NCBI RefSeq assembly: GCF_026262505.1 | Contig: NC_067207.1 | Span: 26,814,082 to 26,878,081, forward strand | DNA from: Trichomonas vaginalis G3 | Lineage: Eukaryota > Parabasalia > Trichomonadida > Trichomonadidae | Direction: 5' to 3' | DNA length: 64,000 bases | Shown: positions 29,042 to 51,958 of the stretch, piece after piece | Layout: the number at the start of each line of letters is the position of its first letter | Numbering within the stretch: position 1 is the stretch's first letter | Made by a program: the position numbers and the translations under genes | The notes under the pieces: model-generated | Seen by the model: the letters and a program-made list of their open reading frames with translations, nothing else | The model's database searches: none | Told to the model about the DNA's origin: nothing

Positions 29042-29251
29042 AGTAGTATGATAGGGAGGGTTGTGTGACTTTTTTTGTAAACGTAAGAATTCATGCAATA
29101 TCGAGTGATTTTGTATCATTTTTTTTAACATATGAAGTAAAAAATGTATGATTCTTACGGTTTTTATTCTTACGTTTTTGAATAAATCAAGATTTAAAAA
29201 ATTTTCAAAATTGTAAGACATTTACACTCAGCCCAAACATAATGAAATAAA
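29042..29251. repeat. Outer element left terminal repeat, first part
   Basis: Inverted match to 51748-51958, nearly perfect. The repeat resumes after the inner element at 43004 and continues to about 43235, giving roughly 440 bp in all. A 60-odd-codon open frame exists in both arms (29024-29221 minus, 51779-51967 plus) but has no start signal or family and is probably chance. Confidence 0.9.
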
Positions 29252-29320
29252 AAAAAAAAAAAAAGGTAGTGGGGCCTCCAGGCACTTCGTGCCCTCTAGC
29301 CCTGAAGATGTTTAGTATAA
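29252..29320. repeat. Inner element left terminal inverted repeat
   Basis: 69 bp: A tract, GGTAGTGGGGC, a hairpin GGCAC-TTC-GTGCC (29281-29293), then CTCTAGCCCTGAAGATG and TTTAGTATAA. Matches the complement of 42931-42997 except in the hairpin, where the stem is changed on both sides, and at one other base. Confidence 0.9.
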
Positions 29321-29531
29321 CTTTGTCCGGACAAGTAAGGGTCTATCGTCGCTACAGGAAAAGTTACAGGCGTTCCAAGGAAGTATACTTTGAGAAGCCT
29401 TTCCCCGTTATAGAATGAGATAGGACGGTTATTTTACAAAACTGACAACACTTTGACCGAGTAGTTTTTTGTGCTGAACAAAAAGTGTCATATAAACATC
29501 TGCCAAAAACCGCTTTTTAACTTCACTTAAA
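29321..29531. other. Inner element left leader region
   Basis: Non-coding 211 bp after the terminal repeat. The last bases, TTAACTTCACTTAAAATG, carry a TCACTT initiator 9 bases before the first ATG, matching the trichomonad consensus, so the viral gene appears to use host-type promoters. Confidence 0.6.
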
Positions 29532-31344
29532 ATGCCACGTAAGCTACGTAAGAATATACGTAAGAGGAAGAGAGCATTGAAACATCCAATAGTAAAACTG
29601 ACACCACAACAACAGTTGCAACAACAAATGATGAATGACCCCACTATGTTGCAACAAATGTCAAGCAACCCTATGCTTTTAAACCGAGTTATTGGTGCAC
29701 AGAGTGGAGGTTTAAGAGCGGCACTTTTAGCGAAAATGGCAGGCTATGGTGGAGCTGCAGACGGAACAGCTTATAACCCTCAAAGTCAAATGAATTTGAG
29801 TTCACTCAAAAATCAAATAACAGATGTCAAAAAGTCAAACATAGACATACAGAAACAAAATAAGTGAAAACGAAAAGAAACTAGAATATGACAGACACAC
29901 AAAGAAACTCAATGAGTTAAACGTAGAGAAAAAGAAGAAAGAAGAACAACTGAAAGAACTAAGTACAGAGGAATATGCGAAAAAAGTGTCAGAAAAAGCA
30001 GCAGAAGTAGCAAAAATGGAACAAGATGTTATAAATTTGAAAAACCATACTACTCAATATAAAGTACTGAAAGATGAAGAGATAAAACAAAAAGCCCTGA
30101 AGACATATATGGATAGCGATGAGTATAAAAAAGAAGTTGAAGCAAATGTAAAGGCAGAAAAACTTTTACAGTTGCAAAACCAAACCGTACAGTATGAAAA
30201 CTTAGCACAAGAAAATAAAAATAACGACGCAGCCATGCAAAAGGCAATGAAAAGCGCAGAATATATAAAAGCTAATAATGACTGGTTAGATGCCCAAGCC
30301 AACGCCAAAGCAGCCCAACTTATAGGGTCAATAAGGACAAAAATACAAGCGGATGAAGACAGTTCAAATGAAGCTTTAATGAATGCTGACTTTAAGAACG
30401 CCTTCGAAGCTCTTCATAGTAAGGTGAAACTAGTGAACGACTTCTCATCTGGAAAGAAACTGAAGTCTGAAGGTTTCGACAAAGAGTTAAGAGAAGTAGC
30501 ACAAAATATGACGAAAATAACAGATGCAGCAACGAGACAGGCAGTTCAAAGTGCCTATGACGCCGTTAGAGCAACTGTTGTGGAAAGTCAAGAAAAAGAG
30601 TTACAACAGACCAAAACAGACCTAGTAAATGCTTTCTTAAAAACGAAAAGTCAGGTAGGACATTATGCTGCAGATGGAACATATGTGCCAGCTGGTGGAA
30701 CTTATATACCAGCTGGTGGAACTTATATACTAGCTAGTGGAACTTATATACCACCAAACCCTCCAAGAGAAGCACCTGCACCAGGACTACCTAAAACATT
30801 TACATCGTCACATGGACACAGACACAGGCATGCACCAAAACCAACACAACAACCAACACAACAACCAACAGTTCAAAACACTGCACCACAACCAACAGTT
30901 CAAAACACTGCACCACAACCAACAGTTCAAAACACTGCACCACAACCAATAGTTCAAAACACTGCACAGCAACAACCACAAACAGAGCAAGGACATAAAA
31001 GAAGTAGAGAACAAGGAAACCAAGAATTCTTAAAAATGCTTAAGGAAAATTATGGTTACCCAGATACTCTTGACTTTAGTGACAGATATAAAGAAGCTAT
31101 TAGAAAGTTCAAGGAAGGAAATACTGACCCGAACCTATTTAGCTTTATGGTTCAGCACCAAATGGGATATAATTTCAAACCTGGAAAATACAAGCTCGCT
31201 AAGGGATATGATTTAATAGCATATCATCCAAATGACATGACTGAATTTACTCCGAGATATTTGGTGTCAGAGCTAAATGATAATTCAACTCTCTTCATGA
31301 AACGCGTAAAAATAGAGACGGAACGAAAGAAGAAAGGTTTATGA
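29532..31344 (+). CDS. Long structural-like protein, frameshifted once
   Basis: A first frame (29532-29867, 111 residues) starts with a very basic tail (MPRKLRKNIRKRKRALKHP) and a Gln/Met-rich part. A second frame (about 29868-31344) continues in a -1/+2 register at about 29860-29868, so the intact protein would be near 600 residues. The second part is Lys/Glu-rich coiled coil, then four near-repeats of GTYIPAGG-type (about 30670-30755), a Pro-rich and QPTVQNTAP repeat region (30840-30965), and a globular end. It is the first gene of the plus-strand block leading to the capsid gene. A minor virion or scaffold role is inference; no family recognised. Confidence 0.6.
30838..30968. repeat. Short tandem coding repeat in the inner element
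   Basis: Repeats of AACCAACAGTTCAAAACACT then GCACCAC (27 bp), about four units, encoding QPTVQNTAP, preceded by ACACAACAACCA repeats. These are likely slippage-derived. Confidence 0.85.
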
Positions 31345-31724
31345 GTCCGGATGACTTAGATAGGGAACTTTTTAAAAACGGTCTCGGAATATATGAAATG
31401 CCAGCAGATGAGGTACAAGAAACTCCACAGGAAGAAGTTCAGATACAACCAGACATGGAAGAAATAGTTCAGCAACAACAGCTAGAAGAGCCTGAAGGAA
31501 ACGAACAAGTCCCTCCTTTGGAAACTAACTTCACAGAACTAGATGAAGATTTGGAACAGCCGAAAAATCTTGACCCTCAACAAGTGTATGCGGGGAATAT
31601 GGAATCTTTCCAAGAGTCTAAGAAAAATTCGGCTGACATAGTAGAAGAATATCGAAAAATGTTCGCCGACATACAAAAGACTCCAACATCAGATGAAAAT
31701 ATCAGCATAGAATGGAAGTACTGA
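31341..31724 (+). CDS. Small acidic inner-element protein
   Basis: 127 residues, very acidic and Gln/Pro-rich (EVQETPQEEVQ, EEIVQQQQLEEPEGNEQ). Its ATG overlaps the stop of the previous gene in an ATGA configuration, and only six bases separate its stop from the next ATG. Such packing is typical of compact viral genomes and unusual beside the spaced host genes here. Function unknown; low-complexity acid proteins of this type are often scaffolds or chaperones of assembly, which is speculation. Confidence 0.55.
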   Translation: MSPDDLDRELFKNGLGIYEMPADEVQETPQEEVQIQPDMEEIVQQQQLEEPEGNEQVPPLETNFTELDEDLEQPKNLDPQQVYAGNMESFQESKKNSADIVEEYRKMFADIQKTPTSDENISIEWKY

Positions 31725-31730
31725 AAGAAA

Positions 31731-32783
31731 ATGTACGCAAATACAAACAATCCTTTTTACTTACGACCATATAACGTTCAATCTTTGGCTGAACTCGGTG
31801 AAAATAAAAGGTTAAATTTCACCAAAACATATAGAAATGAAACATTGTTTAAAGTTCATTCAGAACCTAGCCAATATGGAAACAAACCTACTTTTGTTTC
31901 TGCAGACTATGGAACTACAATGAGATGGGGTCATAAAGCTAATCCGGATAGGTGGTTCATAAACTTACAACCACAATTCCAAGAAGTTGTAGACGCAATG
32001 GAAGTGAATGGTGAACCAGATATAGCTGGTATTTTCAGCGCGGCTTTAATGCCATTGAAAGATATGAAAGATGCAGATATTTTGAACCAGTATGAAATGA
32101 ACATGGCTGATGGAAATATAACACCTGACGTTCTAAAACATTTATCTCAAAGAACTACACAGAACCATAAAGATGGTATATTTGGTGAAGAGTTTAGAAA
32201 GAAAGTTAGGGAGAGAGAAGGAAGAGAACCTATTGTACATGACCTTGCAAACGAAAGTTTGCAAAATGTCATAAAAACTTACTTTGCAGACAATGAACCG
32301 AGAAGGGATGAATATTTAAGAAAACTCAAATGGACAGTACCAAATGAAATGTTAGTATTGAAAAACATGTTCCATGACAAAATAAAACCAACTACAGAAA
32401 TAAATGACGCAAGACTGAAACGTTGGGTAAAAGCTTTCCCATTCACAAAAGATATTATTGGTAACATGGAAAGAAAACCAGAATGGCTACAAAAACATAT
32501 ATTTGGAAACGAGCTTATTCCATATGGACAAGCTCTGTTTGAAGAGCTTGAACCGGAAACTCAGGAAAGAGTCATGCAAACAATACGCGAAGACTCAAAT
32601 ACAAACTATGACAAAATCTTTCTAGGATATAGGTTACCTGAGATGGGCGACCAGAGCCCAAAGGCAAAAAGGACATGGGAAATTTACAACATACTAGGTG
32701 AACATGAGGCAAAGATGCAACAACTTGAAGCAGAGGGCAAGTTACCAAAAGCGACACCAAAGAAGAAGAGTAGAACAAAGTGA
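31731..32783 (+). CDS. Inner-element protein of unknown function before the capsid gene
   Basis: 350 residues, soluble, mixed composition; not recognised. The frame ends in KKKSRTK. A +1 frame continues to 32904 with a Ser/Glu block followed by a basic block (SESSEEVTSSSESS, then RRVKNSVRKKVK), so the real C-terminus may have been longer and lost by a frameshift near 32770. It lies directly upstream of the capsid gene, where polinton-like viruses often place a protease or minor capsid gene; I see no Cys-His catalytic pair to support a protease. Confidence 0.55.
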   Translation: MYANTNNPFYLRPYNVQSLAELGENKRLNFTKTYRNETLFKVHSEPSQYGNKPTFVSADYGTTMRWGHKANPDRWFINLQPQFQEVVDAMEVNGEPDIAGIFSAALMPLKDMKDADILNQYEMNMADGNITPDVLKHLSQRTTQNHKDGIFGEEFRKKVREREGREPIVHDLANESLQNVIKTYFADNEPRRDEYLRKLKWTVPNEMLVLKNMFHDKIKPTTEINDARLKRWVKAFPFTKDIIGNMERKPEWLQKHIFGNELIPYGQALFEELEPETQERVMQTIREDSNTNYDKIFLGYRLPEMGDQSPKAKRTWEIYNILGEHEAKMQQLEAEGKLPKATPKKKSRTK

Positions 32784-32936
32784 AAGTAGTGAAGAAGTAA
32801 CTTCATCTAGTGAAAGTAGTGGCAATGAAGGAAAAAGAAGAGTTAAAAACTCAGTCAGGAAGAAAGTAAAGCTTGGTACGAGTGGGTTCTATTATGATAT
32901 ATAAATCCAACTATTCTATATTTTTACCCATATGAA

Positions 32937-34540
32937 ATGTACGCCGCTCAGAATATAACGCCAACAGTTTTGGATGCCATGAACGGAAATGTTTCCGAAT
33001 GGTATAACGAATGCGACAATGCCATTAGAAGGTCAGAAATAGTTCCTGGAACTTACGAATATACAACTGCTGTTTCTTATGGAAATGTAGGTGAGTTTGG
33101 AGAAGGTTCTTCAACAACAGTAGATATTGCTTGCGACAGGTTTCATATTATTTCTATTGACAACTCATTCTTATACGTGGAACAAGACATTGAAATAAAA
33201 CCTTCTGCCAAGTTGTCTGACAAGAAAGGTTGCAATGGAATTTTCTATGTCGGATACCAATATGCTCCAGAAGTTTTCATGGATATAAGATATATTCTAA
33301 CTCTGACTTAGTTCAAACAGTAACATGGGCAAACTATGAATGGTTCGCTTTGAGAAACTCAGTACAACCACAAGCTAGAGAACAAACAGACCAGTATGCA
33401 AATATTGAGAAAATAAGAAGACTTGACCCTAACGTTCCAGGAGTTTATGTTAACCTTTCTGGTTCAGATGGAAATGCTGCCACTAAAGTAAAACTGAAAC
33501 TTAGAGTTCCTTTGTCATCTTTCCTCATCTTCAGGTTTTTAAGATACTTGCCAAACTGGGCAGGAAAAATTTCTATTGAACTTACTCCAAGCAAAAATAA
33601 CTTAGTCATTGCACCAACACAAGACCCATTCAGCATTACTGTAGCTGGAACTGGTGGAGCCAAGTTCTGTGACTTTTGCAAAGACAAAGTTGACTTAGAC
33701 TTTGGTTTCTCAAACTTCAACAATGAAGTAAACTATTATTTCAATGCTGCTGGAACTGCTTGGGACCCAGTTAAGTTTACATGCGAAAAATTTGAATGCA
33801 AGAGAATAGAAAGCAGACTTGCAGTCTATATGTTGGACCCAGATATTTCAAATGCTTTAGCTGCCAAATATATTGCAGTTCCACTTATGTTCCCTATACA
33901 CCAAATATCTGTCAAAGACTTTGCAGGTGAAGTTGGAAACCAAAGTGCTGACCCAGGTGCAAGAACAGATATTGCTTTAACAACTGCAATGAAACATGCA
34001 GATACTATGTTTGTACTGTTCAGACGAACTATAAATGACTATTCTTGTTTCTACAACCCCGGTATTAAATATCATATAAACATAGATGGCAAATATTATC
34101 CAAGAGAAGAATATTCTACAGTTGAGGATATGAGGTCATACAACTTGACATTAGATGCTATGAACTTTAACAACAACTTCACAACAACCATTAACCCTGA
34201 AATGCAAAGTTCTATTATGCCATATGTGAAAGTATGGACTCATACAGGAGGTCAAAAAACTCAATATACAAATGGAGACCGTTCAAACTTTTGGCTTGGC
34301 ATTCCATTTGCTGACTCAGAAGACTTTATGGGTGGTATTTCAACTGTTGGTACTGTACAAATACAATATACTGGTGACAGAGACGGTCCAGATGAACTGA
34401 GAGCAAAGAAGTTTACAAAACCAATAGCACTTTTCACGGAAGATGCTCTTTTGAAGATTCGTTCGATGAAACCTGCTGGGGCTCCTCAGATTGGCATAAC
34501 GACAGCTTCCATCGAGCAGATTTTGGCAGCAGGTCAGTAA
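32937..34540 (+). pseudogene. Major capsid-like protein of the inner element, one frameshift
   Basis: Two frames join near 33285: 32937-33311 and about 33290-34540. Together they give about 535 residues, close to the outer-element capsid (545). The second half has MFVLFRRTINDYSC, then YNPGIKYH, then GKYYPREEYST, which lines up with the outer capsid VVLTFPKNAMQ, ENPMLRG and RNFPDQAMTT (aromatic/aliphatic strand, NP pair, (F/Y)P motif, T.. D). This is the expected conserved strand pattern of the second jelly-roll. A single missing base interrupts the gene, so this copy is non-functional or misassembled. The capsid call is by comparison within the window. Confidence 0.7.
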
Positions 34541-34852
34541 GTTGTTCTTGAACTGACTTCTCTCCGTCAAATATTGACAGTACGCCAGTTTTGACATAAT
34601 ATTGTAAGATAAACTTACCTTTAGAAATATCTGTAAGTTTTGAAGTTATATTTTTGTCTGCTTCAAGAACTTTCACCATTTCAGTTATACCAACTTTCTT
34701 TGCTTTATGGAAATATTTTGGTTCAGCAAATATTGCTATTCTATAACATTTTCCATTGTTTGTATAAAGAACTATTCTGTCAATGTATTTGTATTGTTTG
34801 TGTGTGTAAACTTGTTCTGCTTCAATTCAAAGAGATATCCGAATACGTCCAT
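34434..34852 (-). pseudogene. Small minus-strand inner-element gene, frameshifted
   Basis: The start ATG is at 34852 (MDVFGYLFELKQNK). After about 17 codons the frame shifts by one base near 34800 and then continues as a conserved-looking protein (IVLYTNNGKCYRIAIFAEPK, later KGKFILQYYVKTG). It runs into the 3' end of the capsid gene, overlapping about 100 bp on the opposite strand. It shares an 18-bp promoter gap with the gene starting at 34871. Function unknown. Confidence 0.45.
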
Positions 34853-34870
34853 CTTTTTATTCTAAGTAAA

Positions 34871-35370
34871 ATGTCATTTCCGAAAAAATAGAAGCGTGAG
34901 TGTTTCAAAAGGTTTAATGGCGGTGGCAGATGTGAAGTTAAATTCACCAACTCAAAAAACAGTCAAAGTGTTGTTGTCAATGTCAAAGACAGAGATGTTG
35001 AAGTGGGGAAACCATACGAGGACGAAGATGGTATAACAATTGTTCCTGTAAAAGAAAACCAACATATCCTGAAATTAGCAGAGACTTAAGTTCTGTTGCA
35101 GATATTCGAAACGACTACCAACAACTGAAAGACAAACTTCAAACTCAGGAGAAGATTTGTCAAGCTTTAAGTATAATGTTAAACTTGGTCGAACACAACC
35201 CTGTAAAAGTGAACTCATATGTCATTGCACCTCATGAAGTTTTGAAAGAACTATTGAAACTTTTGACAGAGGCAGACGATATAAACATCAAAGAAATAGA
35301 ACCCGACATTAGTTGCTGTGGTGTTTCATATAATGTCATTGACAAGATATTACGTTATGAAAGGAGGTGA
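34871..35370 (+). pseudogene. Coiled-coil inner-element protein, broken
   Basis: The ATG at 34871 opens a very basic N-terminus; an in-frame stop follows (FPKK, then TAG). The rest reads through two register changes: a small beta-rich segment (VVVNVKDRDVEVGKPYEDED) and, from about 35080, a helical C-terminus (RNDYQQLKDKLQTQEKICQA, then YVIAPHEVLKELLKLLTEAD). About 160 residues if intact. It has a Cys-Cys pair (ISCCGVSYN). Unknown function. Confidence 0.4.
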
Positions 35371-35698
35371 AACGTTGAACTTAAAATATAGTTTCCCAGA
35401 CGTCATAAAAATATTTGACGACCACAACATTTCATTAAAGTTTATTTGCTAAGTAAAAATGTCAAAACTTCTTGAAAGATGTTTGAAGAAAAATAATAGA
35501 CTTTATTTCATTGTAAAGGACTTTACACACTTTTGAACGATATGAAAGACCCTGTTTTGTTTGTTCGTGTAGACAAAGGAAAGTTTCTATGTCTTTACAA
35601 AATATTTGAACTTCTTAGACAGAGAACTTCAAGAAACGTCATGTGAAAGTTTAGATGAATTCTTCTCCACTTTCAGAAAAACTTTTAAATATATATAA
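35371..35698 (+). pseudogene. Unassigned degraded coding region
   Basis: Short overlapping frames in all plus registers (for example an ATG at 35460 starting MSKLLERCLKKNNRLYFIVK, soon shifted) with inner-element codon use. Probably one or two small genes broken by indels; no function visible. Confidence 0.3.
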
Positions 35699-36489
35699 AT
35701 GGCAGAAGATATAATGGTTTATACTATTACGACTAAAAACCCTGAGTCATATAATTCTATAACAACAAACTTACAAAGTCCTCAAGGACGATATTGTAAA
35801 CTAACCTTAAACACAATGACGACTAAAGCCTGTTTTGCTCTTTTGACACCAGAAGACTTTATTGTTGTGAATGGTAAAAATACTCCTTTGAAGATACTTA
35901 CTCAGATATACCACCAACAGGTTTTGTGACTTATTTAATACTTTAAGTACAGGTGTAACATGTGCTGCAACTAGAGCAGGTTTCATTATGTTTGGATGTC
36001 CGACTGAGTTTACTATAAACGATATGAGTATAATACAAAACTATTTCTGGTTTTTACTACCAACAGTTTCCTATAACAGGAAAAGGTGTCATACAAGGAA
36101 TGTCTATTCCATTGACATTAAGCACACCAATCTTATATTGTTTCAAACTTAGGTTCAAAGTGTTATTCGAATGTCGACAGAAACTATTTATGACCAAAAG
36201 ATACTTATGCGTATAAACAATACTTTCTCTGCTGGTTTGCCTATTGTTCATTCGAATGCAGAATTTTCAACCTTAGTGAACTCAAACACTTTGGCAAGTA
36301 TAACGTTGACATTAGTTGACGCAAACTTGTTCCTGTAAAACTTTATGTCCTATGTATTTGTCAATGACGGCAGAAAGTTCGAATTGGAAGATGCAACTGG
36401 GTGAAAGTATTGTATTACAAGAACAACTTCAACAACAAATAGCTCAAGAACAACAAATGCAACAAATGCAACAACAAAGTCAAGAATAA
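35699..36489 (+). pseudogene. Probable penton/minor capsid protein of the inner element, frameshifted
   Basis: The ATG at 35699 starts MAEDIMVYTITTKNPESYNS. The frame breaks near 35890, 36040 and later, but the shifted pieces together make a beta-rich protein of about 260 residues (e.g. GVTCAATRAGFIMFGCPTEF and IPLTLSTPILYCF) ending in a Gln-rich tail (QQIAQEQQMQQMQQQ). Length, strand content and position downstream of the capsid gene fit a single jelly-roll penton protein; the call is inference from context, not motif. Confidence 0.4.
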
Positions 36490-36518
36490 AAAAAAATATT
36501 TTTTTTATTTTTATAAAA

Positions 36519-38208
36519 ATGTACAGAATAGATGTTTCAGATTTTTATGACTTCCAAGCATCAGAAATATGTGTCCATTTCGAGACTATAACAAAGCAGT
36601 CGAGAATTTGAAACGTTTAGTCATTTATGTCGACTCTGCCCCAGAATGTTATGTTATGAAAGAATGGGATGTAGTCTTTAACAAACCTAAAGCGACAATA
36701 GTTTCAGAACAAGAATGTAGACAGAAACTTAAGAAAATAAAAGTCGTACAAGTTGGCATGAAGATGTTAGATGCTTGGGATATCTTATTGTCAAAGTTAG
36801 AAGATTTTTTCAGTTCGAGGTATAAAGTTCTATACACCTTCTCCAAACTTCTATTCTATCTTCACTGGATATAAATACGAACAAGTAGAATGGAAAGAAA
36901 ATATTATAGAAGCTTGGTTAGACCATGTCAAAGAAATTATATGCAATGGAAACGAAAGAGTCTATGAGTATATCTTATGTTGGTTTGCAAACATCTTACA
37001 ACATCCAAGTGCTAAAAATGAAACTGCTCTCATTATTAATTGGAAAACAAGGAACTGGTAAGAACACATTCTTTACAGATATTTTGTGCAAACTGTTAGA
37101 GGGCTATTCGAACCGAATATGACAAACATAGAAAACATCTGCGGTAAATTTAACTCCTCAATAGAGAATATGAAACTTATAGTTTGCAATGACTTCAAAG
37201 TATAGATACAACAAAAGTTTTAAACTCAGATGCTTTGAAGAGTCTTATAACAGACAAAGTTGGAGTTGTTGAAAGAAAATATAAAGACCAAAGAGTTTGT
37301 GAAAATGTTGCAAACTTCATTATGGTTTCAAACAATGCTGTTCCGATGAAGTTAGAAAGTTCTGACAGAAGATATGTAGTTGTCAGAACGTCAGATTCTC
37401 ATATGCAAGATACAGAATATTTTGACGACTTAGCAGAAACTTTGACATCTGACTTTTACAACCACTTGTTCTCATATTTCATGACATTAGATATTTCTAA
37501 GTTCAATCCAAGACAAATTCCACATACCGAAGAGAGACAAACATTGTTAGAAGCAAACAAGAGTGTATATGAACTGTTCATAGATGAAACTGACTTTGTG
37601 TCATTAGATGAAAGGTCATTGTACGATTCGTATAAACAATATTGTCAAGAATATGGTTATATGACAGCTTCTAAACGAACATTCTTGGCAAATGTCAAAA
37701 GTCTTTTAGACGTACAGAATGGTGTATATACAGAAAAAATTTTTCTGAGTAAATTTTTAAAAAAAAATATTTTTTTATCCGATAGAAAAGATGACAAAAT
37801 TCATCTCAGTAAACAAGTACATGTCAGGACTAAAGAAGAACTAGACCCATTCACATATTTGAATGTTTACTTCTACCATTTTGAAAAGTCTTCATTCAGC
37901 AAAGTTTGGAACATCGAACCAGTTAAGTTTGCTATTGTGACTAAAAATGGTGCGAAATTTGAAGACTTAGACATAGAAGGTTTGTTAGCAGTCAAAGAAA
38001 GTTTTGACAGAAGGTTCTCAAACCTTAAAGAAGCAAAGCATACAAACTTGTTATACCTATATGAACCAAAGAAAGCAGACGACTATGAATATTATGAGTC
38101 TAAAGTTGTAGAAGTTCAAGGTAAATTGGGTAAAAAGATTTTAGAGTCTAAGCCAGTGTTACTCCTAAAGAGGAAGAGAACATTGACATTGACCCAGAAA
38201 TGTTCTAA
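36519..38208 (+). pseudogene. D5-like superfamily 3 helicase of the inner element, frameshifted
   Basis: Pieces in different frames (start at 36519; 36570-36830; 36850-37030; 37030-37110; 37125-37200; 37205-38150; end at 38208) form one protein of about 560 residues. Helicase signs: WFANILQHPSAKNETALII, the Walker A GKQGTGKNTFFTDI (about 37043-37085), LIVCNDF (Walker B-like), then SLITDKVGVVERKYKD and NFIMVSNNAVPM with the sensor Asn and SSDRRYVVV arginine region. This is the core of D5/phage-primase-type helicases that unwind replicating viral DNA. At least six indels break it. No complete primase or polymerase domain is visible N-terminal to it. Confidence 0.75.
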
Positions 38209-38226
38209 AAATAAAATTTTATTTTT
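38207..38226. terminator. 20-bp palindrome with back-to-back AATAAA signals
   Basis: AAAAATAAAATTTTATTTTT is a perfect palindrome between the convergent helicase gene (stop 38206-38208) and the minus-strand gene (stop 38225-38227). It carries AATAAA on both strands and could serve as a two-way polyadenylation signal. Confidence 0.6.
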
Positions 38227-38685
38227 ACATGTCAAATTTCTTTTTCTCTGGAACTGGTTCAGGTTCTTTCTTCTTCTTCTTCTACTTTCTTTTCTTTCTT
38301 TTCTCTCTTCTTCTTTTCTGGTGGAGTTATGTCAAATTTGGCGCAACCATATTTATGTAAAAGTTCTTTGTCCTTTAATAGCTCATCTATTCTGTTTTCT
38401 ATTTCATCTTCAAGAACAGCGCATGTGTCTTCTTTGCATTCTAAGAAGTTTTGTTGGACTTCATCTCTCCAAGAGGCGTCACCTCTGTCAACAAGTCTGT
38501 CATTGACAAATTTTAAGACTGCTCTGCTTAATGTTTTATGGTTCTTGTCATATTCCCAGAAACAGAACTTTTAGAACAAATTCACCTTTCTTGTTTACAC
38601 TATGTAAGATTTTATGGTCGACCAGAACAGATGTTGTTGCTGTCGAAAGCTTGTCTCGAATATAGATAGCGAAATCGCTAGACAT
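38225..38685 (-). pseudogene. Small charged inner-element protein, frameshifted
   Basis: The ATG at 38685 starts MSSDFAIYIRDKLSTATTSV. A shift near 38570 and another near 38280 are needed to read through WRDEVQQNFLECKEDTCAVL, a Lys/Glu tail and a stop at 38225. About 150 residues. No recognised family. An AGATAAAAT promoter-like motif lies between this ATG and the next plus-strand ATG at 38721. Confidence 0.45.
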
Positions 38686-38720
38686 TTTCTAAAAGATAAA
38701 ATTTTAATTTTTCTAAAAAT

Positions 38721-39362
38721 ATGTTAGAAAAAAAGTTTGCTGACATTGACAAGAAATTTGAGAATGTTTAAAACAAGAAAAGAGGAAGTTAGAAAATGCT
38801 AGATAAAACCTATACATGAAAAGTTCTTAATTTGCTCAGAAATGGTATAACAGGTTCTAATTGCACCACCTGGGTCGGGTAAGACTTTCACTTATCTTAA
38901 ATGGCTGCACAACAACAAAGAACTAGATGAGAAGAACCCATTCTATGAGTTAGGTTGTTTATTTGTAGTACTTCTGGTCAATTTGACCAAAACGTCAATT
39001 CGTTCAAAGATATTATAAAGAAGTCTAAGTTAGTATGTATAAAAGACTGCTGAGTTGTTAGATTGGAATAAGAAGTACCAAAGAAGAGTTTTGAAGTATA
39101 ATGCTATAAATGAGTATATAAATTCTAAGTTTTAAAGACCCAAATGAGGAAATGCAGAGAATATTAGAGAAGAAACACTTCAGAAACAAAACAGAAAAGA
39201 GATAGAATACATTTCGAAGAATTGCAATCTTACGATTGGAAGACATACCCTCATAGATGTTCTTCTTATCTTAGATGACTTTTGCTTCTCATCCTTTGCT
39301 TAAGAATAGAGAACAAGGCATGTGTCGAATTCTTAAGAAGCTCGACACTTTAACATCTCAGT
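38721..39362 (+). pseudogene. A32/FtsK-like packaging ATPase of the inner element, broken and ending in a gap
   Basis: The start MLEKKFADIDKKFENV opens a helical N-terminus. After register changes the ATPase core appears: VLIAPPGSGKTFTYLKWL (Walker A GSGKT, near 38855-38910), STSGQFDQN, a Lys-rich helical insert, and a hydrophobic strand LLILDDF (Walker B, about 39265-39285) with HPLLKN after it. This order is that of viral DNA-packaging ATPases related to poxvirus A32 and Polintons. At least five indels break the frame, and the 3' end is lost in the N run, so the arginine finger cannot be checked. Confidence 0.7.
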
Positions 39363-39387
39363 NNNNNNNNNNNNNNNNNNNNNNNNN
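39363..39387. other. Assembly gap (25 N)
   Basis: The gap joins the ATPase gene to the fibre-like gene in opposite orientation. Its true length is unknown, and the C-terminus of both genes may be missing. Confidence 0.98.
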
Positions 39388-40278: not shown

Positions 40279-40297
40279 TTTTTATTCTAGATAAAAT

Positions 40298-41141: not shown

Positions 41142-41145
41142 TTTT

Positions 41146-41388: not shown

Positions 41389-41406
41389 TTTACTATATGT
41401 AAAAAT

Positions 41407-41768
41407 CTAATGTCCGCCTAGTCTTTTACGTTTCCTTCTGAGTTCCATAGCATTCTTTAACTGGAGCTCATACATTCTGTTTCTCCTCTGGTAGAAAACA
41501 TATTCTGGGTCAACTCCTGTGTTCGCGTCATCTGCATAAAGTTGTTTATATCCCACTTCAGGGTTTGTATAAAACTCTTTCCATCTCATATTTGCATACC
41601 ATGGTGGCAAACCTAACGCAGCGTCATTTGACATGGCAGTTTGCATTTGTACATCTGTTGGCACTTGACCATAGTTTGCCATTGCAGTTTGTTTCTAACT
41701 TCATTTGGAATATTCTCTGGGTTTGGTTGTCCAGGTTGCTGTGCATTCGCTAAGTTCTGTGCGTCCAT
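41407..41768 (-). pseudogene. Small inner-element protein, frameshifted
   Basis: The ATG at 41768 (MDAQNLANAQQPGQPNPENI) runs about 30 codons, then the frame shifts near 41680 to the longer reading (QVPTDVQMQTAMSNDAALGL) ending in a basic tail RRKRKRLGGH. About 115 residues if whole. The arginine/lysine tail could bind DNA or act in capsid assembly. Confidence 0.45.
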
Positions 41769-41790
41769 TTAATATTAGATAAAATATCTC

Positions 41791-41922
41791 TTACGAGTAC
41801 ATATACTGAACATTTGCAGGCATTGGTTCATCTTCATATTCTCTATATCTTTCTGCCACGTCAAAGAAATAAATGACACAATGGAAAAAACCTAAAACAA
41901 GTATAGCTATTTCAAACCACAT
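41791..41922 (-). CDS. 43-residue single-pass membrane protein
   Basis: Starts MWFEIAILVLGFFHCVIYFF at 41922, one clean hydrophobic helix, then a short acidic cytoplasmic-type tail (DVAERYREYEDEPM). The ATG overlaps the last 16 bases of the methyltransferase gene on the same strand, and the gene sits between two virion-type genes. Small membrane proteins of this size are common in compact viruses. Intact in this copy. Confidence 0.5.
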   Translation of the reverse strand: MWFEIAILVLGFFHCVIYFFDVAERYREYEDEPMPANVQYMYS

Positions 41923-42726
41923 TTACTTACTAATAAAATTTCTTTGTTATGACACTTTCTCCGGTTTATAGGACCTCTCTCATATTCTATCTTGTCATAT
42001 CTAAACTCATAGTCATGTATGTCCTCTAACCATCTCATAACGGTTTCCAAACCACTTTTATCGGATGTAAAGTAAAAGCATGGATGGTTATGTATAACGT
42101 CTAAAGTTTCTAAAGAGTCTCTCAAAGTCCAGTCTACTTGGTATTGAAAATCCCATGTGTTATAGAACAGCGGGTCCACTATAAAGAAAACATTTTCCTT
42201 GTCTTTATATTTTTCATACAACTCTGTCCAATGACATCTCACAAACTCTATACCCTCAATATATTTTTCTATGTCCTCTTTGAAAACATTTGTATAGTTA
42301 AGATATAAAACTTTTGACATAAGTGTTTCAATGTCATGAACTCTTATAGAACCACTATATAATAGTCTAGCAGATATACTATTCCAGTCTATATATTCTG
42401 CTTTTTTTCAAAAACCTCTCTCACAATATTTTTCTTATCTAATGGTATACGTTCCATCTTACTATAGGTATCTTTTCTTTTAACTCTTTCAATATATTGT
42501 TTGTGTCTGGTATATGTTTGAGACGGTCCATATAGTTGTCGAAGTCATTGCATATAATCTTTGAGTCTGGGAATATTGTATGGCACAAATGGGATATATA
42601 GAAACTTCCACCGAACAAATCTACAAATGTTAGACCATTCGGTAGTTTCTTAAGTTCTCTCAATATAATATCTTTACATTTACTCTTATTTCCAAAGAAC
42701 GGTAACGGAGGTTTTGTAAAATTCAT
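41907..42726 (-). pseudogene. D12-class DNA adenine methyltransferase of the inner element, frameshifted
   Basis: The N-terminal frame (42726-42439) has PFFGNKSKCKDIIL and FVDLFGGSFYISHL, the SAM-binding motif of Dam-type enzymes (usually DLF.GgG), then IICNDFDNY (motif II/III region). A shift near 42440 and another before 42320 lead to the C-terminal frame (to 41907), which carries NVFFIVDPLFYNTW, the catalytic motif, normally DPPY, here DPLF. About 270 residues overall, the right size for this family. Such enzymes methylate N6 of adenine at short DNA sites and may protect viral DNA from host or competitor nucleases. Confidence 0.7.
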
Positions 42727-42930
42727 TTATATATAATAATAAAAATGTTTTTACCCGAAAAGTGACAGAAAAGTGACAAAACATGAAAACATATATAATT
42801 TGTGAAAAGCGACACATTATATAATGTTTTCGACCCAGAAGAAGGCTTCTTCCCAGAAGCAATGGAGGAAGAAGAAGAGTCCTCCGAATTCACACCAGAA
42901 GACTAACAATTTTCCGAATAAAAACTTCAT
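42727..42930. other. Inner element right leader region
   Basis: Contains short repeats AAAAGTGACA/GAAAAGTGACA (about 42758-42782 and GAAAAGCGACAC near 42805) and, at 42823, an ATG opening 43 basic codons (MFSTQKKASSQKQWRKKKSP) that overlap an acidic reading frame. It is not clear that either is real. A replication or promoter role for the repeats is possible. Confidence 0.35.
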
Positions 42931-42997
42931 TTATACTAAACATCTTCAGGGCTAGAGGGCGCAACGCGCCTGGAAGCCCCACTACCTTTTTTTTTTT
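42931..42997. repeat. Inner element right terminal inverted repeat
   Basis: Complement of 29252-29320. The hairpin here is GGCGC-AAC-GCGCC (42958-42970), compared with GGCAC-TTC-GTGCC at the left. Both stem strands have changed together, so the fold is kept. Confidence 0.9.
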
Positions 42998-43003
42998 AAT
43001 AAA
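42998..43003. repeat. Right 6-bp duplication of the inner element (AATAAA)
   Basis: Same as 29246-29251. The bases AATAAACGCATT continue the outer terminal repeat, as in the uninterrupted opposite arm. Confidence 0.85.
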
Positions 43004-43235
43004 CGCATTAAAAAATTAACATTAATTTTAAAATAATTTATTTTTTATCTTTTATAAAAGAAGCTATATATAGATGATGTCAGATATTCCGCGATTAATT
43101 AAACATTGTTTAAATCCTGAATGGAATCAATAAAGTCATAATCAAAGACCTCATAAACGAGTAAAAGAAATTAGAAATAATTATTTTCATGAATGAAAGA
43201 TTCACTACCATAATAAAATAAAAAAAATAAACTTT
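43004..43235. repeat. Outer element left terminal repeat, second part
   Basis: Inverted match to about 51520-51740. It contains the first codons of the accessory gene seen whole at 3581-4168, cut off by a deletion (GAATGG joined to AATCAATAAAGTCA). Confidence 0.85.
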
Positions 43236-43284
43236 AAAATTAATGTCTTACATTTTTGAATAATTTATTTTTATTTTTAATGAA

Positions 43285-44431: not shown

Positions 44432-47400
44432 ATGAACAAAAACGGAACAGCTAAAATGAATGATAATCAAATTAGAGCAGAAGGTAGAAGGTTATTTAAA
44501 CGCTTCTATAACATTCCTGATGGTGCTAATCTTAAAACTCGTAGAAGCTATTTAAATGAAGCAATAGATGCATATGAAGGGTTTGATATTTCATCAGAAA
44601 GTGAGAGATTAGCGAGAATGTTAAATGTTAATATTGATTTCTATTATTGTGATCCTCAACCAGAAGACGTGGACATAAATAAGGTAGACTTTCCATTAGT
44701 GGAATCAATAATGATAGATCCAGAATTTGAAACAGTAAATATTTTATTAACACAGAGTCCATGTGGAAAACTTCACGCTGACAGAATAACAGACGTTGAA
44801 GCACTCACCGGCTATAGAGTTTGTCCATATTGTAAAGAAGAAGTTTATTCTATCCGTGATGATCCAGAAAGGAAAAACCAAAGAAGATTTTTAAAGCATT
44901 GTGAGAAATGTAAAGAAAATAATGGAAGATTAATTCAAGACGTTCAATTGCAAAAGACACAGCAACCATATGCACCACATATTACGAAACAGAAGATATA
45001 TCAGTGGTTATTAGCTCATAATTTGCAGGAATATTATCAACCGACAAGATATTATATTACTTTTGACTTCGAAACATTAGAGACTAAAGAAGAATTACAA
45101 CTTTCTGAGTGTGCAACTTTGAACGCTTACTTAAAACCATTCATGGTATCATCAACGGTTAAATTAAATGATAAAACATATACGAGGAATTTTTGCTTAA
45201 CTTCGAGTGATTCTTTTATTTCTGATTGGATTGAGTTTTTATTTTCAACCTGTTCATTAGTTGCTAAATCAAATATTGAACAATATGAAGAATTAATGAA
45301 GTCGCAAACGGACCAAACGGCGGGGACTTTGTCTCAAACATTAAATGAAAAACAGAAGGAAGCATTTAAAGAACTTCTAGATGAGGAATTCAATAAAGTG
45401 AATATCATAGGTTTTAATTCGGGAAAGTTTGATTTAAATTTAATTCTTCGTGATTTAAACACTGCAAAATGGAAAATAAAATCAATGCTGGGTTCATCTT
45501 CACAATTTAAGCAAATCATTGTAAAGAAAACAAACGCTCCATATGAATTGAGATTTATTGACATCAGAAATTATATAGCGGGTGGGACATTAGACCAATT
45601 CACTCAAGATTTTGGAAACAATAAATCACGTGTTAAATCCTTTTTCCCTTATCAATTCATCACATGGGAAAATTACGAAGAAGAATTATATAAAGAGGAA
45701 CCATTCACGAAAGATTCATTTTATTCAGCATTAACTCAAGAAACTATATCAGATAGTGATTATCAAATATATCTCAATGATGCTAAAAATTTTAAGAATA
45801 GATTAGAATATTTTATTCATTATTGCAATAAAGATGTTGAAATTATGATTGACCCAATCGATAAAATTATTGAAGAAACATTTGTTTATAAAATTGATAT
45901 GCTTCATAATCTTTCTTTATCATCGAATGCTTCAATGATTCGTTACGCTTTAGCATATAAAGACTTTAATCCTAATGAAAAATATCCTGAGGAAGAGATA
46001 GAATCAAGTTTTGAATTAACGAAAAAGTATTGGAAATATAAAATTGAATCATATAAGAAACAAGATGAAAAAGCAGAAAGGGATACTAAAAATAATGTTT
46101 CAATGGATGATTTTCAATACTATCACGATTTAATCCTTTCATCTAAATGCAAAATGTGTGGTAAAGCGTTTACATATGCAAATAAACCAACATTGGATAG
46201 AATCGATAATGAAAAACCACATACCAAAGAAAATTGTCAGTTAATGTGTTGTTATTGCAATGTCGTAAAATCAAATAAAGATGAAGATGTTCAACGTTTA
46301 AGAATCAATTTAAGAAATTACGCATTAAAAAATAATTTACCAATGACTTTAGATTCAGTTGAAGCTTATCACATTCTCCGTAATGGAATTACTGGTGGTT
46401 TATCAAATGTTCAACATCGTTAATCTTAAAGGAATCACACATTAATAAACTTTCATATAATCCAGAAACTAAAACTGTATCAAATGAGGACACTTCCAAC
46501 ATTATGACTCATTTCGTTGGAGTTGACTTTAATTCATTATATCCTTCATCATTTTCATCTAATCCTCATGATTTCATTCAATATACTGACCATAAAATGT
46601 ATATGCCGGGAAGATTGAATGGTGTTATCATTTGTGATACAGCAACAAAGAAAGCAAAAGCACTGGGAATAATTAAGAAGAAAAATACTTTATTCGTTGC
46701 TGAAGTAAAGGGTCACATTGATGAAAAATACATTAATGATTACATAAACTTTTTACCGATAATAAGAAACTTAGATATTATCACAGATGAAAAAACAATT
46801 GGTGGTTTTATGTATAATTACATGAAATCAAACAATCTACCAGTTGACCAGAAACAAAGAAAATTAACTCAGTTAGCATCAACACACAACCAATATCAAC
46901 CATTTTCTTCTTATTATCTATGGTATCTAATAGATAGATTTCATTTTATCATTGATGATATTCAATCAATTTTAACATTTACTAAAAACACTTGTTTTAA
47001 TGAATTTGCGAACAAATTTATGAACGAAAGACAAAAGGCTGAATTAGAAGGAAATAAAGGAAAAAGTTTATTTTGTAAGATTTCGCTTAATGGATCATAT
47101 GGTTACGATGCAATGAATACACAAAATTACGCAAGGACTAAAATAATGAATGCACAGAAGGCACGCGTTGCATGTATGTCAAATAAGTTTAAAAACATAA
47201 GAGAAATAGGTGAAGATACATATCAAGTGATGCTTAAAGATAGATTTTATAGATGTGATACATGTTTACAAGAGGCATTCTTCACTTTAGATAATGCTAA
47301 ATACTGGTATTTGGTTTTCATTTATGATTTTATGTATAAATGCATGGATGTTAATCGTTTTCATTTCATTGAAGGTGATACTGATTCATCTTATTGGGCT

Positions 47401-47904
47401 ATTGCTGGCGACCCAAATCTTCCTAACACTCAAGCATTTCAAGCAATTGTTACCGATAAAAAATTTTATGATAAAAACATTTTCAAATTCGCACCATTTG
47501 ATTTCTTTTGTTTTGATGAGAAATTTAAACCTAAATTAAAGAATAAAGCTGAAGAAAAAGCACATGAGAAGAAGTTATTGGGTTTAGCAATTGAGAAACA
47601 AGGTGATAACATGGTTGCTTTATGCCCTAAATGTTATACATCATTCAACGGTTCAATTGATGGAAGTGATTTTAAAAAGATTGCACAAAAAATGAAGGGT
47701 GTTAGTTTAAGACAAAATAAGCAATTAACACCTAAAAAATATTTGGATATAATAAATGATAAAGTGATATTTGATGGTCAAAATATTAATTTACAACTTA
47801 AAAACGGGTCAATGACTCGCTTAACAATTGGTAAGACTGCATTAACAGGAGCACACACTAAGGCTGTATGTTGTGAAAATGGATGTTGTATGCCATTTAT
47901 TTAA
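44432..47904 (+). pseudogene. Protein-primed family B DNA polymerase, frameshifted in the middle
   Basis: First frame 44432-46423: zinc-ribbon CPYCKEEV...CEKCKENN (about 131-160); Exo I ITFDFETLET (about 210); Exo II GFNSGKFDLNL (about 330); Exo III YCNKDVEIM (about 465); then an HNH-like insert (CKMCGKAFT, TLDRIDNEKPHTKENCQLMC, CYCNVVKSN; about 571-615). Indels at 46423-46450 break the gene. Second frame 46504-47904: motif A GVDFNSLYPSSF, motif B KISLNGSYGYD, motif C EGDTDSSYWA. Total about 1150 residues, as expected of Polinton polymerases. It copies the element from a protein primer at the ends. The two indels close together suggest decay or sequence error in one small spot. Confidence 0.88.
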
Positions 47905-48005: not shown

Positions 48006-48027
48006 CATTTATTTTATTTTTATATAA

Positions 48028-48606
48028 ATGAATAACACAGATTTAAAAATTTTAATTGATGATTTAATATTTAATCAAAATTTTCTTAGTTATTGTGATT
48101 TAAAAGCATATCTCCAAGACTATGATAACAATATAACGGATGATGATATGGAATATTATTATTCATATTATGATAATGAATTTTTGAAATATCATGATAG
48201 AATAATTTCTAAAATTAAAGACAAAATTAAAAATAATGAATATACAAAGGGAAAAACTAAATCACAACTTAAACAATTGAAAGATTTCAAAAATAAAGTA
48301 TTAACAGAAGAAGATATTGATGAATTATATAATTTATATAATCCTGAGCCGCAAAAACAAAAGGAACAAAACGCCCAGGTCCTTCAGACCATAAATGATG
48401 CACAAGCTTTAATTTATGATTCATTAGTTAAACCATATTCAGCCCGGCTTTTAAATGAAGATCAACTTTTGGAATTCATCCTTCAACATAAACTCGAAGC
48501 GGGAAAGTATATCAAACCTTTATATACAGCATATTTAAAACAAATGAATAGAATACATCATCCAAAATTCTGTTTACCAATTGCTGCAGTGATTGAATTT
48601 AAGTAA
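48028..48606 (+). CDS. Outer-element protein with chimeric C-terminus
   Basis: 192 residues, Asp/Tyr/Lys-rich (DDDMEYYYSYYDNEF) with a helical second half (RLLNEDQLLEFILQHKL). Not recognised. The last dozen residues (LPIAAVIEFK) are read from the antisense of the ATPase gene, because a deletion fuses this gene to it at about 48570. The original protein must have ended differently. A short GC-rich hairpin, GGTC-CTTCA-GACC, occurs inside the gene near 48378. Confidence 0.55.
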   Translation: MNNTDLKILIDDLIFNQNFLSYCDLKAYLQDYDNNITDDDMEYYYSYYDNEFLKYHDRIISKIKDKIKNNEYTKGKTKSQLKQLKDFKNKVLTEEDIDELYNLYNPEPQKQKEQNAQVLQTINDAQALIYDSLVKPYSARLLNEDQLLEFILQHKLEAGKYIKPLYTAYLKQMNRIHHPKFCLPIAAVIEFK

Positions 48607-48749
48607 CATTCAGAATATGGAATTTTCATTAATTTTTCCTTAGATAGAGCATTTCTATTATCACTCAATGCTTCATTAATCATATCATCTATGTATGTAT
48701 TATATACTCCTGCTAATTCTTCATAAGGGGTGGATGAATTTAAATCCAT
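48558..48749 (-). pseudogene. Truncated packaging ATPase (outer element)
   Basis: 63 codons identical in start and nearly so in sequence to 266-80 of copy A, up to AAIGKQN. At about 48570 the sequence leaves the ATPase and enters the 192-residue gene, so the P-loop lysine-threonine and all later motifs are gone. Confidence 0.85.
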
Positions 48750-48773
48750 TTAATCAAAAATAAATTTATAATT

Positions 48774-50420
48774 TTAAACATTTCTATTCATCAATATTTC
48801 ATCATATGAACTTCTATACTGTGGTGGTGTACCTGTTGGATGATATTTCAAACCTTCGTCCGGTGTCCATGTCCAATATGTAGTCCTAGTAAACCAAACC
48901 TGAGGAGGATTTGTCACCTTTGAACAGTAAGTGTCATTTTCACCCTGAATGATTGGATAAGCTTTCACTTGTACTGTAACTTGTGAGTTGAAAGTTTCTA
49001 ATCCATCAAAGAATATACCCGCTCCATCACGTTGAACTGGAATAGTGCATAAGAATGAAGTTTTGGTCTTGGTTTTCCATGTTCTAGCTAAGGCGTGCCA
49101 TCATCTGCATTCAGTGGTCTAGTTAATGAGTCCTCGTATTCTTTCCGTGCATTCATTCACTCCATCTAAATCAGAAGCTTGAAGCATACGTGTAAAGAAT
49201 ATGTCACCCACTGTGGTCATCGCTTGATCGGGGAAGTTTCTGGAATCTATAGTGACCTGAAGACCTCGAAGCATTGGATTTTCTAAAACTGTTCTTTGCA
49301 TTGCATTCTTCGGAAATGTTAACACAACATCTGTAACATTATGAAGAGCGTATGAGAAATCTGAGCTAATACCTTCAGGAGTGATGCAACCTCCATTTAG
49401 TGAACGAACGTCAATATGTTGAGCTGGAATCATGAATGGATCTTCCTTACTGAATAAACGTGGTATTGCTTTAACTGATTCTTCAATTAAACTGTATCCT
49501 GGTGTAATGCATTTATCCTCTAAAACTTCCATCTTTGTGCATGAAATAATAACGTCTTCAACTGTTGCCTCAGCAGATGTAGCGGCTAAGCTTGTAATTA
49601 ATTTGGCAGGAAGTCCGATTTGTTGGAATTTGCGATCATATTTATAAACATGATTCATAATCTTTTCATAATTTTCATCAGTTATCTTTTCATAAACGTA
49701 ATTTTGTAAATCAGCAACTCTTAACGGGTCAACCTGACAAAATACTAAAGTATCCCTGAAAACATAATATTTAAGAATGATATCACCAAATGATTTAGGA
49801 TAATCATCGAACGCCTGAAATGCTAACAAATCATTTACCGGAATAATCATATCAAAAGTGACATCAACTTCTTCATTTGCTTTCTTGAAAACTTCTGAAG
49901 GGTCAATATATTTACCACATACTGAGTTATCATATTTTTGAACATTATTATATAACGAATGAACAAACTTTTTAACTTTCCTTTCTGATTTTGGTTTATA
50001 TGTTGCAAATGCGAAAGATTCACGGGCGCAATCCATCTGAAGATAACCGGCATCACCTCTTTCGGTTTCTACTCCTAATTGTTTAAAGCTTTGATTTGAT
50101 GATTTGTAACCAACGAATAAACGCATGCATTTAAAAGCGGCATCACATGTGAAAGGTTTATTTGAAACTAGAGTTGCTTTAACTTTGCGTTTAATATATG
50201 TGTCACCTAATTGGTTCACATCATGAGCCGGATTTGTAATTCTTAAATGAGTTTGTTTATCATCAAAATATGGAGCATCAGAGTCATAGCATGAACTTTC
50301 AAGTTCTCTATAATATCTTCTACCATCATTCTTTGCGAATATTTCATTTATCTTTTCGAATGAATGAAACACATTTCCATTAATCGGTTTAGTGTTTGGC
50401 ACCAAATAGTTAGTCGTCAT
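48774..50420 (-). pseudogene. Major capsid-like gene of the outer element, frameshifted
   Basis: Nearly identical to 291-1928, starting at the same ATG (MTTNYLVPN). Several single-base changes in 49062-49145 (extra bases around TTTTGGTCTTGGTTTTCC, a lost base in CATCATCTGCATT, an extra base in TTCTTTCCG) break the frame after about residue 430; the last 64 residues are read in another frame (48774-48968). The concentration of indels in 80 bases is notable. Confidence 0.85.
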
Positions 50421-50489
50421 TTATTATTAAATAAAAAATCAAAATTAAAAGATGAAAATGAATTTTTAATTTTAATGAAATAATCAACT

Positions 50490-50705
50490 ATGGCTGCAGG
50501 ATTCTTTAAGAAACTGTGGGATAAAGTAAAAAGAGGAGCGCATAAAGTTTGGGAAACATTGAAGAAGGGAGCAAATTGGATATTTAAGAATAAAGAAGCA
50601 ATTAGTGACGTTGCTGAATCAATAACACCAAAAGCTGCCCCAATAAGAGAAATATTAAATAAAGGAGAAAAAGTTTATCAAAGACTTCAACCGATACTAA
50701 GATAA
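50490..50705 (+). CDS. Small amphipathic basic peptide, paralogue 1 (outer element)
   Basis: 71 residues, counterpart of 1998-2210. The first 23 residues match exactly; then TLKKGAN replaces GIKKGAN, and the C-terminal half differs (ITPKAAPIREILNKGEKV). Intact. Same membrane-active or core-protein inference as in copy A. Confidence 0.65.
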   Translation: MAAGFFKKLWDKVKRGAHKVWETLKKGANWIFKNKEAISDVAESITPKAAPIREILNKGEKVYQRLQPILR

Positions 50706-50733
50706 AAATAATATTTATTTATTTATTTTTCCA

Positions 50734-50970
50734 CTATCTACCTCCTATTTTATTAAGTATTCCTTCAGCTATTCCACCAATTGCGTTACCTGCTTGTGCT
50801 CCCATCGCCGGATTACCTGCTTTAGTACCTAATACTCCACCTATGATAGTTCCTGCCGTTTTCGCTACTGGTGCCAAAAAGTTTGCAATGGGTTTAATAA
50901 TCTTTTTATGAACCCAACCCGCAGCTTTCTTAATTCCATCCCATAATTTTTTAAAGAATCCTGCCGCCAT
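50734..50970 (-). CDS. Small amphipathic Gly/Ala-rich peptide, paralogue 2 (outer element)
   Basis: 78 residues from MAAGFFKKLWDGIKKAAGWV, the start that matches copy A; an upstream in-frame ATG at 51009 is less likely because it covers the promoter. It ends NKIGGR, showing the original stop that copy A has lost. Hydrophobic Gly/Ala segment about 33-70. Confidence 0.65.
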   Translation of the reverse strand: MAAGFFKKLWDGIKKAAGWVHKKIIKPIANFLAPVAKTAGTIIGGVLGTKAGNPAMGAQAGNAIGGIAEGILNKIGGR

Positions 50971-51037
50971 TTCTGATTTAATATTAATTAAAAATATATA
51001 TTTCATCACTTATATTCTAATTTTTATTTAATGATAA

Positions 51038-51406
51038 ATGAAACCAATTTTAAAAATAAATGAAACAGAGGAGGGAGAAATAAATGAAAGTGAAAATGTT
51101 CAACAAAAAATAAACGTTGTTAAACCAATTACTGAAATAAAAATTTTTTCATCTGTTGAAGAATTTAATGACTATTATGCCAATAATAAAAAATTATTTG
51201 AAGAATTGACAACATGTAAATTGAATAAAATGTTTAAAGTTGATGGATTCAAAATTTCAAAAATAAAGGGGGTGGTTAGTTTGAAATCTATTCCTCAATC
51301 AAGAATCACCTCATTAATGAAAATTGATGATTTAACAAAAAGAATAGAAGAGATTGAAGAAAGAATGAATCAAATAATTGATTTCATAAATTCAAATAAT
51401 CATTAG
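51038..51406 (+). CDS. Small acidic coiled protein (outer element)
   Basis: 122 residues, counterpart of 2538-2945 without the nine-codon hairpin insert and with a plain C-terminus (DFINSNNH). It probably represents the ancestral form. Unknown function. Confidence 0.6.
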   Translation: MKPILKINETEEGEINESENVQQKINVVKPITEIKIFSSVEEFNDYYANNKKLFEELTTCKLNKMFKVDGFKISKIKGVVSLKSIPQSRITSLMKIDDLTKRIEEIEERMNQIIDFINSNNH

Positions 51407-51520
51407 TTTCTTAAAGTTCTATGTTGAACTCATCAAATTTCTTTTTCTCGTTTATGAGGTCTTTGATTATGGTAGTGAATCTTTTATTCATGAAAATAAT
51501 TATTTCTAATTTCTTTTTAA
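51407..51520. other. Remains of deleted accessory genes
   Basis: Where copy A has the 161- and 195-residue genes, only short edges remain, including one copy of a repeated block (GGTAGTGAATCTTTTATTC, about 51473-51525) that occurs again at 51543-51595. Confidence 0.6.
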
Positions 51521-51958
51521 AGTTTATTTTTTATTTCATTATGGTAGTGAATCTTTTATTCATGAAAATAATTATTTCTAATTTCTTTTACTCGTTTATG
51601 AGGTCTTTGATTATGACTTTATTGATTCCATTCAGGATTTAAACAATGTTTAATTAATCGCGGAATATCTGACATCATCTATATATAGCTTCTTTTATAA
51701 AAGATAAAAAATAAATTATTTTAAAATTAATGTTAATTTTTTAATGCGTTTATTTCATTATGTTTGGGCTGAGTGTAAATGTCTTACAATTTTGAAAATT
51801 TTTTAAATCTTGATTTATTCAAAAACGTAAGAATAAAAACCGTAAGAATCATACATTTTTTACTTCATATGTTAAAAAAAATGATACAAAATCACTCGAT
51901 ATTGCATGAATTCTTACGTTTACAAAAAAAGTCACACAACCCTCCCTATCATACTACT
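51521..51958. repeat. Outer element right terminal inverted repeat
   Basis: About 440 bp, the inverted partner of 29042-29251 plus 43004-43235. It contains the first codons of the accessory gene (51637-51686) and ends CTCCCTATCATACTACT. The region 51735-51765 shows the uninterrupted insertion site of the inner element. Confidence 0.88.

Follow-up and report, generated by a model that had tools for sequence, protein, structure and literature searches.

The locus

The stretch of DNA considered here, called the window throughout, comprises 64,000 nucleotides of the Trichomonas vaginalis G3 genome. It corresponds to C5:26814082-26878081, where C1, C4, C5 and C6 are contigs of the searched assembly; L numbers designate loci fetched from it. 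All genome-wide counts were taken on this assembly (180.85 Mb, 86 contigs). Mavericks/Polintons of T. vaginalis are said to have been treated by Pritham in 2007. According to excerpts of PMC10120064, about one third of the genome is Maverick. In the window, one element of this kind, the inner one, lies inside a terminal repeat of another, the outer one. The ends of the two elements are arranged as follows.

29036-29041, no strand: left target duplication TTGCTT of the outer element, 6 bp, read in the sequence
29042-29251, plus strand: tip half of the outer left terminal repeat (AGTAGTATGATAGGG...), 100% complementary to 51749-51958
29252-42997, plus strand: inner Maverick-type element as assembled, 13,746 bp including an assembly gap, delimited by inverted ends and the AATAA(A) duplication
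29254-29320, plus strand: inner left terminal repeat (A run, GGTAGTGGGGCC...), 67 bp
42931-42997, minus strand: inner right terminal repeat, 67 bp
42998-43225, plus strand: inward half of the left terminal repeat of the outer element, together with AATAA(A) in its second copy, from inverted-repeat comparison
51527-51958, minus strand: intact right terminal repeat of the outer element, 432 bp, containing the empty site
51959-51964, no strand: right target duplication TTGCTT of the outer element, read in the sequence

The nested insertion

The outer element spans 29042-51958. It ends in terminal inverted repeats of 432 bp, of which the left one is broken at about position 210. The tip halves of the two repeats (29042-29251 and 51749-51958) are complementary without a mismatch across 210 bp, the inward halves (42998-43239 and 51515-51754) to 98.3%. 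The inner element sits in the break; in the right arm the site is empty. The initial annotation had reported outer inverted ends flanked by TTGCTT and had taken the opposite arm as the pre-insertion sequence, and both observations stand. It would have counted absence of the empty site from all other copies against nesting; the site is uninterrupted in all 39 other outer repeats among the 40 scored matches (the window included). These are the matches with the best scores, so unbroken repeats are favoured by the selection.

The inner element, too, has inverted ends, as annotated. The repeats at 29254-29320 and 42931-42997 match to 93% over 67 bp and carry A/T runs at their tips. The annotated six-base duplication AATAAA has to be corrected, however. 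Duplication length was measured on ten inner-family copies of C1 that have both tips (20.8-25.1 kb), and 5 bp fits nine of them. The longest match is exactly 5 in pairs 1, 3, 4, 8 and 9; in pairs 2, 5, 7 and 10 there are additional A/T continuing into the tip runs, and pair 6 is unclear. The inner family duplicates 5 bp and, therefore, the AATAAA of the window is AATAA plus one ambiguous A.

We conclude, with a probability of roughly 0.88, that an inner Maverick/Polinton of about 24 kb integrated into the left 432-bp repeat of a resident outer Maverick of about 20 kb. Nested insertion by a Polinton-type element, as initially proposed, is supported by the ends of both elements, the duplications and the empty site. 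Linear inner DNA would have been integrated with a 5-bp staggered cut at repeat positions 205-210, presumably by the inner family's own rve-type integrase.

The outer element

44432-47904, plus strand: DNA polymerase B, encoded in two frames that overlap and including a stretch similar to HNH/endonuclease VII (PF03175, PHROG)
48560-48567, no strand: deletion junction, about 10.3 kb lost from the outer element, from comparison with relatives; the pattern occurs once in the genome
49119-50420, minus strand: predicted major capsid protein, 433 aa, from relatives and the fold of P0001

The outer family has AGTAGT tips, in line with the AG...CT tips of Mavericks/Polintons. Six other pairs were taken to read its duplications; all five that were readable at both tips have 6 bp. 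Outer-type tips number 828 in the genome by an exact pattern and 426 by a stricter one. On C1, 23 of 45 consecutive inward-facing pairs are spaced by 19-22 kb. Eight of the 45 exceed 28 kb, a spacing that would be expected of nests or of unrelated neighbours.

The polymerase frame matches PF03175 with an E value of 1.7e-5 and 24.3 bits, which is below the cut-off of 25.8 bits. PHROG profiles yield DNA polymerase (8.9e-10) and endonuclease VII (1.2e-11). Judged by these profile matches, the outer element encodes a DNA polymerase B, as expected of Mavericks/Polintons. The HNH/endonuclease VII-like stretch is found at 45995-46321, between exonuclease-like and polymerase motifs that were recognised by eye.

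Without its insert, the outer element measures 9.2 kb; the full length of its family is about 20 kb. In a relative on C4, about 10.3 kb are present between the sequences that are joined at the deletion junction in the window, and this stretch contains a KilA-N domain and, by eye, an integrase-like C-terminus. Past the jump point at 48567, 28 of 29 other capsid loci, which include the second outer-type copy inside the window, continue with the sequence seen at window 1-83. The remaining one, L065, matches neither window copy at this point. The junction is spanned by just one of the 40 scored matches, the window itself, and its pattern is unique in the genome. By such comparison the outer copy is a private deletion derivative of its family. 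Outer-type tips only 9.1 kb apart at C1:1960837-1969977 had prompted the idea of a multi-copy, non-autonomous 9.2-kb subfamily, which is rejected for the window deletion because of the singular junction. The C1 tip pair has a deletion different from that of the window.

The outer copy would probably be unable to move by itself, since one relative has its integrase-like sequence in the very part that is deleted here. As 210 bp are intact at both tips, it could conceivably be mobilised in trans.

At window 1-4322, 24.7 kb left of the nest, lies the right part of a further Maverick of the outer family. It is 96% identical to 48567-51391 over 2.85 kb, and has a capsid frame at 291-1928 and its tip at about 4321. 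Elsewhere in the window, 59097-60536 consists of tandem units of about 250 bp that are partly self-complementary (about 70-78%).

The inner element

30016-31344, plus strand: gene matching Pfam DUF4106 (E 3.8e-239)
32937-34540, plus strand: predicted major capsid protein gene, here in two frames (32937-33311 and 33221-34540), from relatives and a model of P0017
37193-38506, plus strand: primase/helicase-like frame (DUF5906; weakly D5-like; DUF4108), from Pfam and PHROG profiles
39363-39387, no strand: assembly gap of 25 N, where about 10 kb of a 24-kb relative are missing

The tips of the inner family read A(n)GGTAGTGGGG. This pattern has 1,865 exact matches in the genome and the reversed control has none, so it is not a product of chance. 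The left 601 bp of the element match 40 scored places (window included) at 99-100%. Unlike the outer family, the inner one has A/T runs of variable length at its tips (in the window 29252-29264 and 42987-42997): the left A run varied between 10 and 71 among 21 copies measured. Slippage in end replication might account for this. Both ends of the element (29272-29302 and 42949-42979) are able to form a hairpin, with stems that differ by one paired change. These folds are barely better than those of shuffled sequences (z of -0.98 and -2.05), and the 12 inner tips matched in fetched loci were of the left-arm hairpin type only, i.e., of one loop-and-stem type.

The assembled 13.7 kb cannot be taken as the true length of the inner element, since a 25-N gap sits inside it and about 10 kb more are present in a relative. 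Homology to this relative, C1:983120-1007192, ends exactly at the left side of the gap and resumes at window 39779, by which point the relative has advanced by about 10 kb. No match to the 390 bp on the right side of the gap was present in the pieces of the relative that were fetched; the 100 bp adjoining the gap on this side have 45 matches elsewhere in the genome. Among 100 inner tips listed on C1, 18 of 28 consecutive inward pairs are spaced by 22-26 kb. From this comparison, the inner copy may be a full-length element of about 24 kb. A genuine short form of 13.7 kb is not accepted, the gap lying inside. The stretch of this relative that corresponds to the gap (L094) encodes two KilA-N proteins and one T5orf172 protein.

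Capsid genes and family membership

The claim of the initial annotation that both elements carry capsid-type genes holds. In this copy the inner gene is divided between two frames; the outer gene is short, with 433 aa as compared with 545-546 aa in 70 of the 97 places where it was found. The capsid folds were modelled on close relatives, P0017 for the inner and P0001 for the outer protein. Both models have the double jelly roll, and the two families accordingly encode major capsid proteins of this type. A PDB sequence search with the two capsid profiles gave one match at E 0.77 with one of them and none with the other.

Terminal inverted repeats and a target duplication within the 5-6 bp typical of Mavericks/Polintons are present in the inner element; the outer one has terminal inverted repeats and a duplication of 6 bp. 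The two families are unlike in tip sequence, in duplication length (5 versus 6) and in capsid sequence (17% identity). A packaging ATPase, a protease and a minor capsid protein were not among the frames scanned in either element, for which no dedicated search was made.

The Pfam scan matched window frames to DUF4106, DUF4108 and DUF7777, which we take to be Trichomonas families. The Pfam model of DUF4106 matches the gene at 30016-31344, beside the capsid; database proteins of the "DUF4106 family" resemble the capsid frame 32937-34540. A mix-up of labels is possible. A protein of the outer element has matches among the TVAGG3 proteins of T. vaginalis G3. Rfam had no match in the window, nor had the phage DNA collection.

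Origin of the nest

Nests of this kind are to be expected because the genome is so full of Mavericks. By chance, 1.8 inner insertions in outer repeats are expected for 828 ends and 4.3 if all 1,945 first-look candidates are assumed to be outer repeats. A second nest was found at C4:16452248-16496858. There, an outer-type element of 44.6 kb has GAAAAT on both sides, and an inner-type tip, seen at one junction, lies about 960 bp inside its left repeat.

Some observations weigh against the explanation given above for the nest. An integrase was not recognisable in the outer copy of the window, nor in the inner copy as assembled, which has the gap inside. In the outer relative L093, the integrase-like C-terminus at 629-1045 was recognised by eye and has no Pfam match. 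The rve-like frame of L094 has an E value of 0.0041, which is below the Pfam cut-off and hence weak, and a 732-aa frame of the same locus has polymerase-like motifs by eye without a Pfam or PHROG match. Finally, three further inner-type tips lie within about 25 bp of the window site, and this simple picture predicts fewer.

The latter finding raises the question of a hot spot, which the initial annotation had touched upon in proposing a preference for terminal repeats. It is conceivable, though rather unlikely, that the inner family prefers a short stretch of the outer repeat, roughly positions 188-210 of the 432. Such a preference could arise, for instance, from tethering of the integrase, from the local shape of the DNA, or from a promoter in the repeat where chromatin is open. 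In its stricter form, the proposal is that the inner integration machinery recognises a stretch of about 25 bp in the middle of the outer repeat, which would result in repeated independent insertions, a hot spot of element on element; this we consider unlikely.

The three tips were found with one query of 151 bp across the left junction and another one across the right junction. The former had full-length matches at two other loci, C1:9588805-9588957 and C6:15627101-15627247. In the first, an inner-type tip follows CATAATG at C1:9588924, and the outer-type flank ends at repeat position 203; in the second, the tip follows TTTACACTC, at repeat position 188. The right-junction query matched C5:13366198-13366360, where the right flank begins with ACTAAACCATT, the counterpart of AATAAACGCATT in the window (from 205). 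In a 30-bp stretch, 0.13-0.30 others are expected, and the probability of three or more is 3e-4 to 4e-3. For the true number of outer repeats there are only bounds; if 4,000 are assumed, the expectation rises to 0.62 and the probability to 0.025. The look-alike junctions seem to be separate events, because insertion points and tip letters differ among them. Composite transposition of outer plus inner element is not favoured for the same reason.

These figures have to be read with caution, however. The queries were tied to the window site, the one part of the repeat that was scanned in this manner. The three loci are known by one junction each, the partner junctions not being among the matches listed. 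The C1 locus (L115) follows the inner sequence for about 45 bp and then diverges, so that it may represent a related family. None of 20 other inner-family sites sampled is in an outer-type end. Two inner copies, L006 and L013, are inserted in homologous sequence at points about 8 bp from each other, outside the window site, which implies that coincidences arise easily where target copies are very many.

An overall enrichment of inner tips near outer-type DNA was not seen: the loci around outer-type repeats and capsid genes (231 kb) contain one inner tip versus 2.4 expected. Two of the 20 sampled inner sites (L006 and L085) match sequence inside outer-type elements, the share of which is 4.6% by tip count. 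A third, L003, is found 40 bp from an outer-like tip, on the outer side. The proposed preference is thus neither shown nor excluded: a single insertion is at chance level, yet three further tips at about the same spot exceed the 0.13-0.6 expected. A target preference in the outer repeat remains a live lead, suggestive of a hot spot but not proven.

That repeats were mis-assembled, joining two elements, is highly unlikely. The gap inside the inner element and the uniqueness of the outer deletion junction might be quoted in its favour, but a mis-join would not yield a duplication at both junctions plus an exact empty site in the other arm. The parasite of a parasite that the initial annotation envisaged, i.e., an inner element that depends on or harms the outer one as a virophage does, finds no support and scarcely deserves credence: for it there is only the nesting itself, by which a terminal repeat of the kind needed for protein-primed replication is split, whereas both elements belong to high-copy Maverick families with integrase-like sequence in one relative of each, a full-length inner relative has its own frames of KilA-N, polymerase-like and rve-like type, 17 of the 20 sampled inner sites have no recognisable outer-type sequence around or next to them, and none of the 100 inner tips listed on C1:0-12.14 Mb falls within the 25 outer spans there (4.7% of the sequence), spans defined by a tip pattern that missed the C1:9588924 case.

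Relation to known systems and meaning

Both elements of the nest resemble the known Mavericks/Polintons of T. vaginalis, as far as excerpts of PMC10120064 and PMC7845603 describe them. Common features are inverted ends, duplications of 5-6 bp, a double-jelly-roll capsid gene, polymerase B (in the outer element), rve-like and KilA-N sequences (in relatives) and a very high copy number. Nested copies are mentioned there, too: as excerpted, PMC7845603, by Warring and colleagues, lists nested Mavericks in the published T. vaginalis annotation of this very assembly.

Polinton-like viruses and virophages with nested retrotransposons are described in excerpts of PMC12220804 and PMC12747079, the former citing the Cafeteria Ngaro case. 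They share with our nest a mobile element inside an integrated small DNA virus, for which PMC12220804, again as excerpted, uses the term "hyperparasitism". There, however, the insert is a retrotransposon, whereas here it is a capsid-coding Maverick and the target is a terminal repeat. In the excerpts of the literature considered, we found no description of an insertion into a Maverick terminal repeat.

The nest is real and well marked, but ordinary for the T. vaginalis genome, where nested Mavericks were already known. It reminds us that element lengths read off this assembly can mislead where gaps sit in repeats. It also provides a clean marker for relative dating and reveals that Mavericks with capsid genes insert into each other's ends. 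Should the hot spot prove real, one virus-like element would target the replication ends of another.

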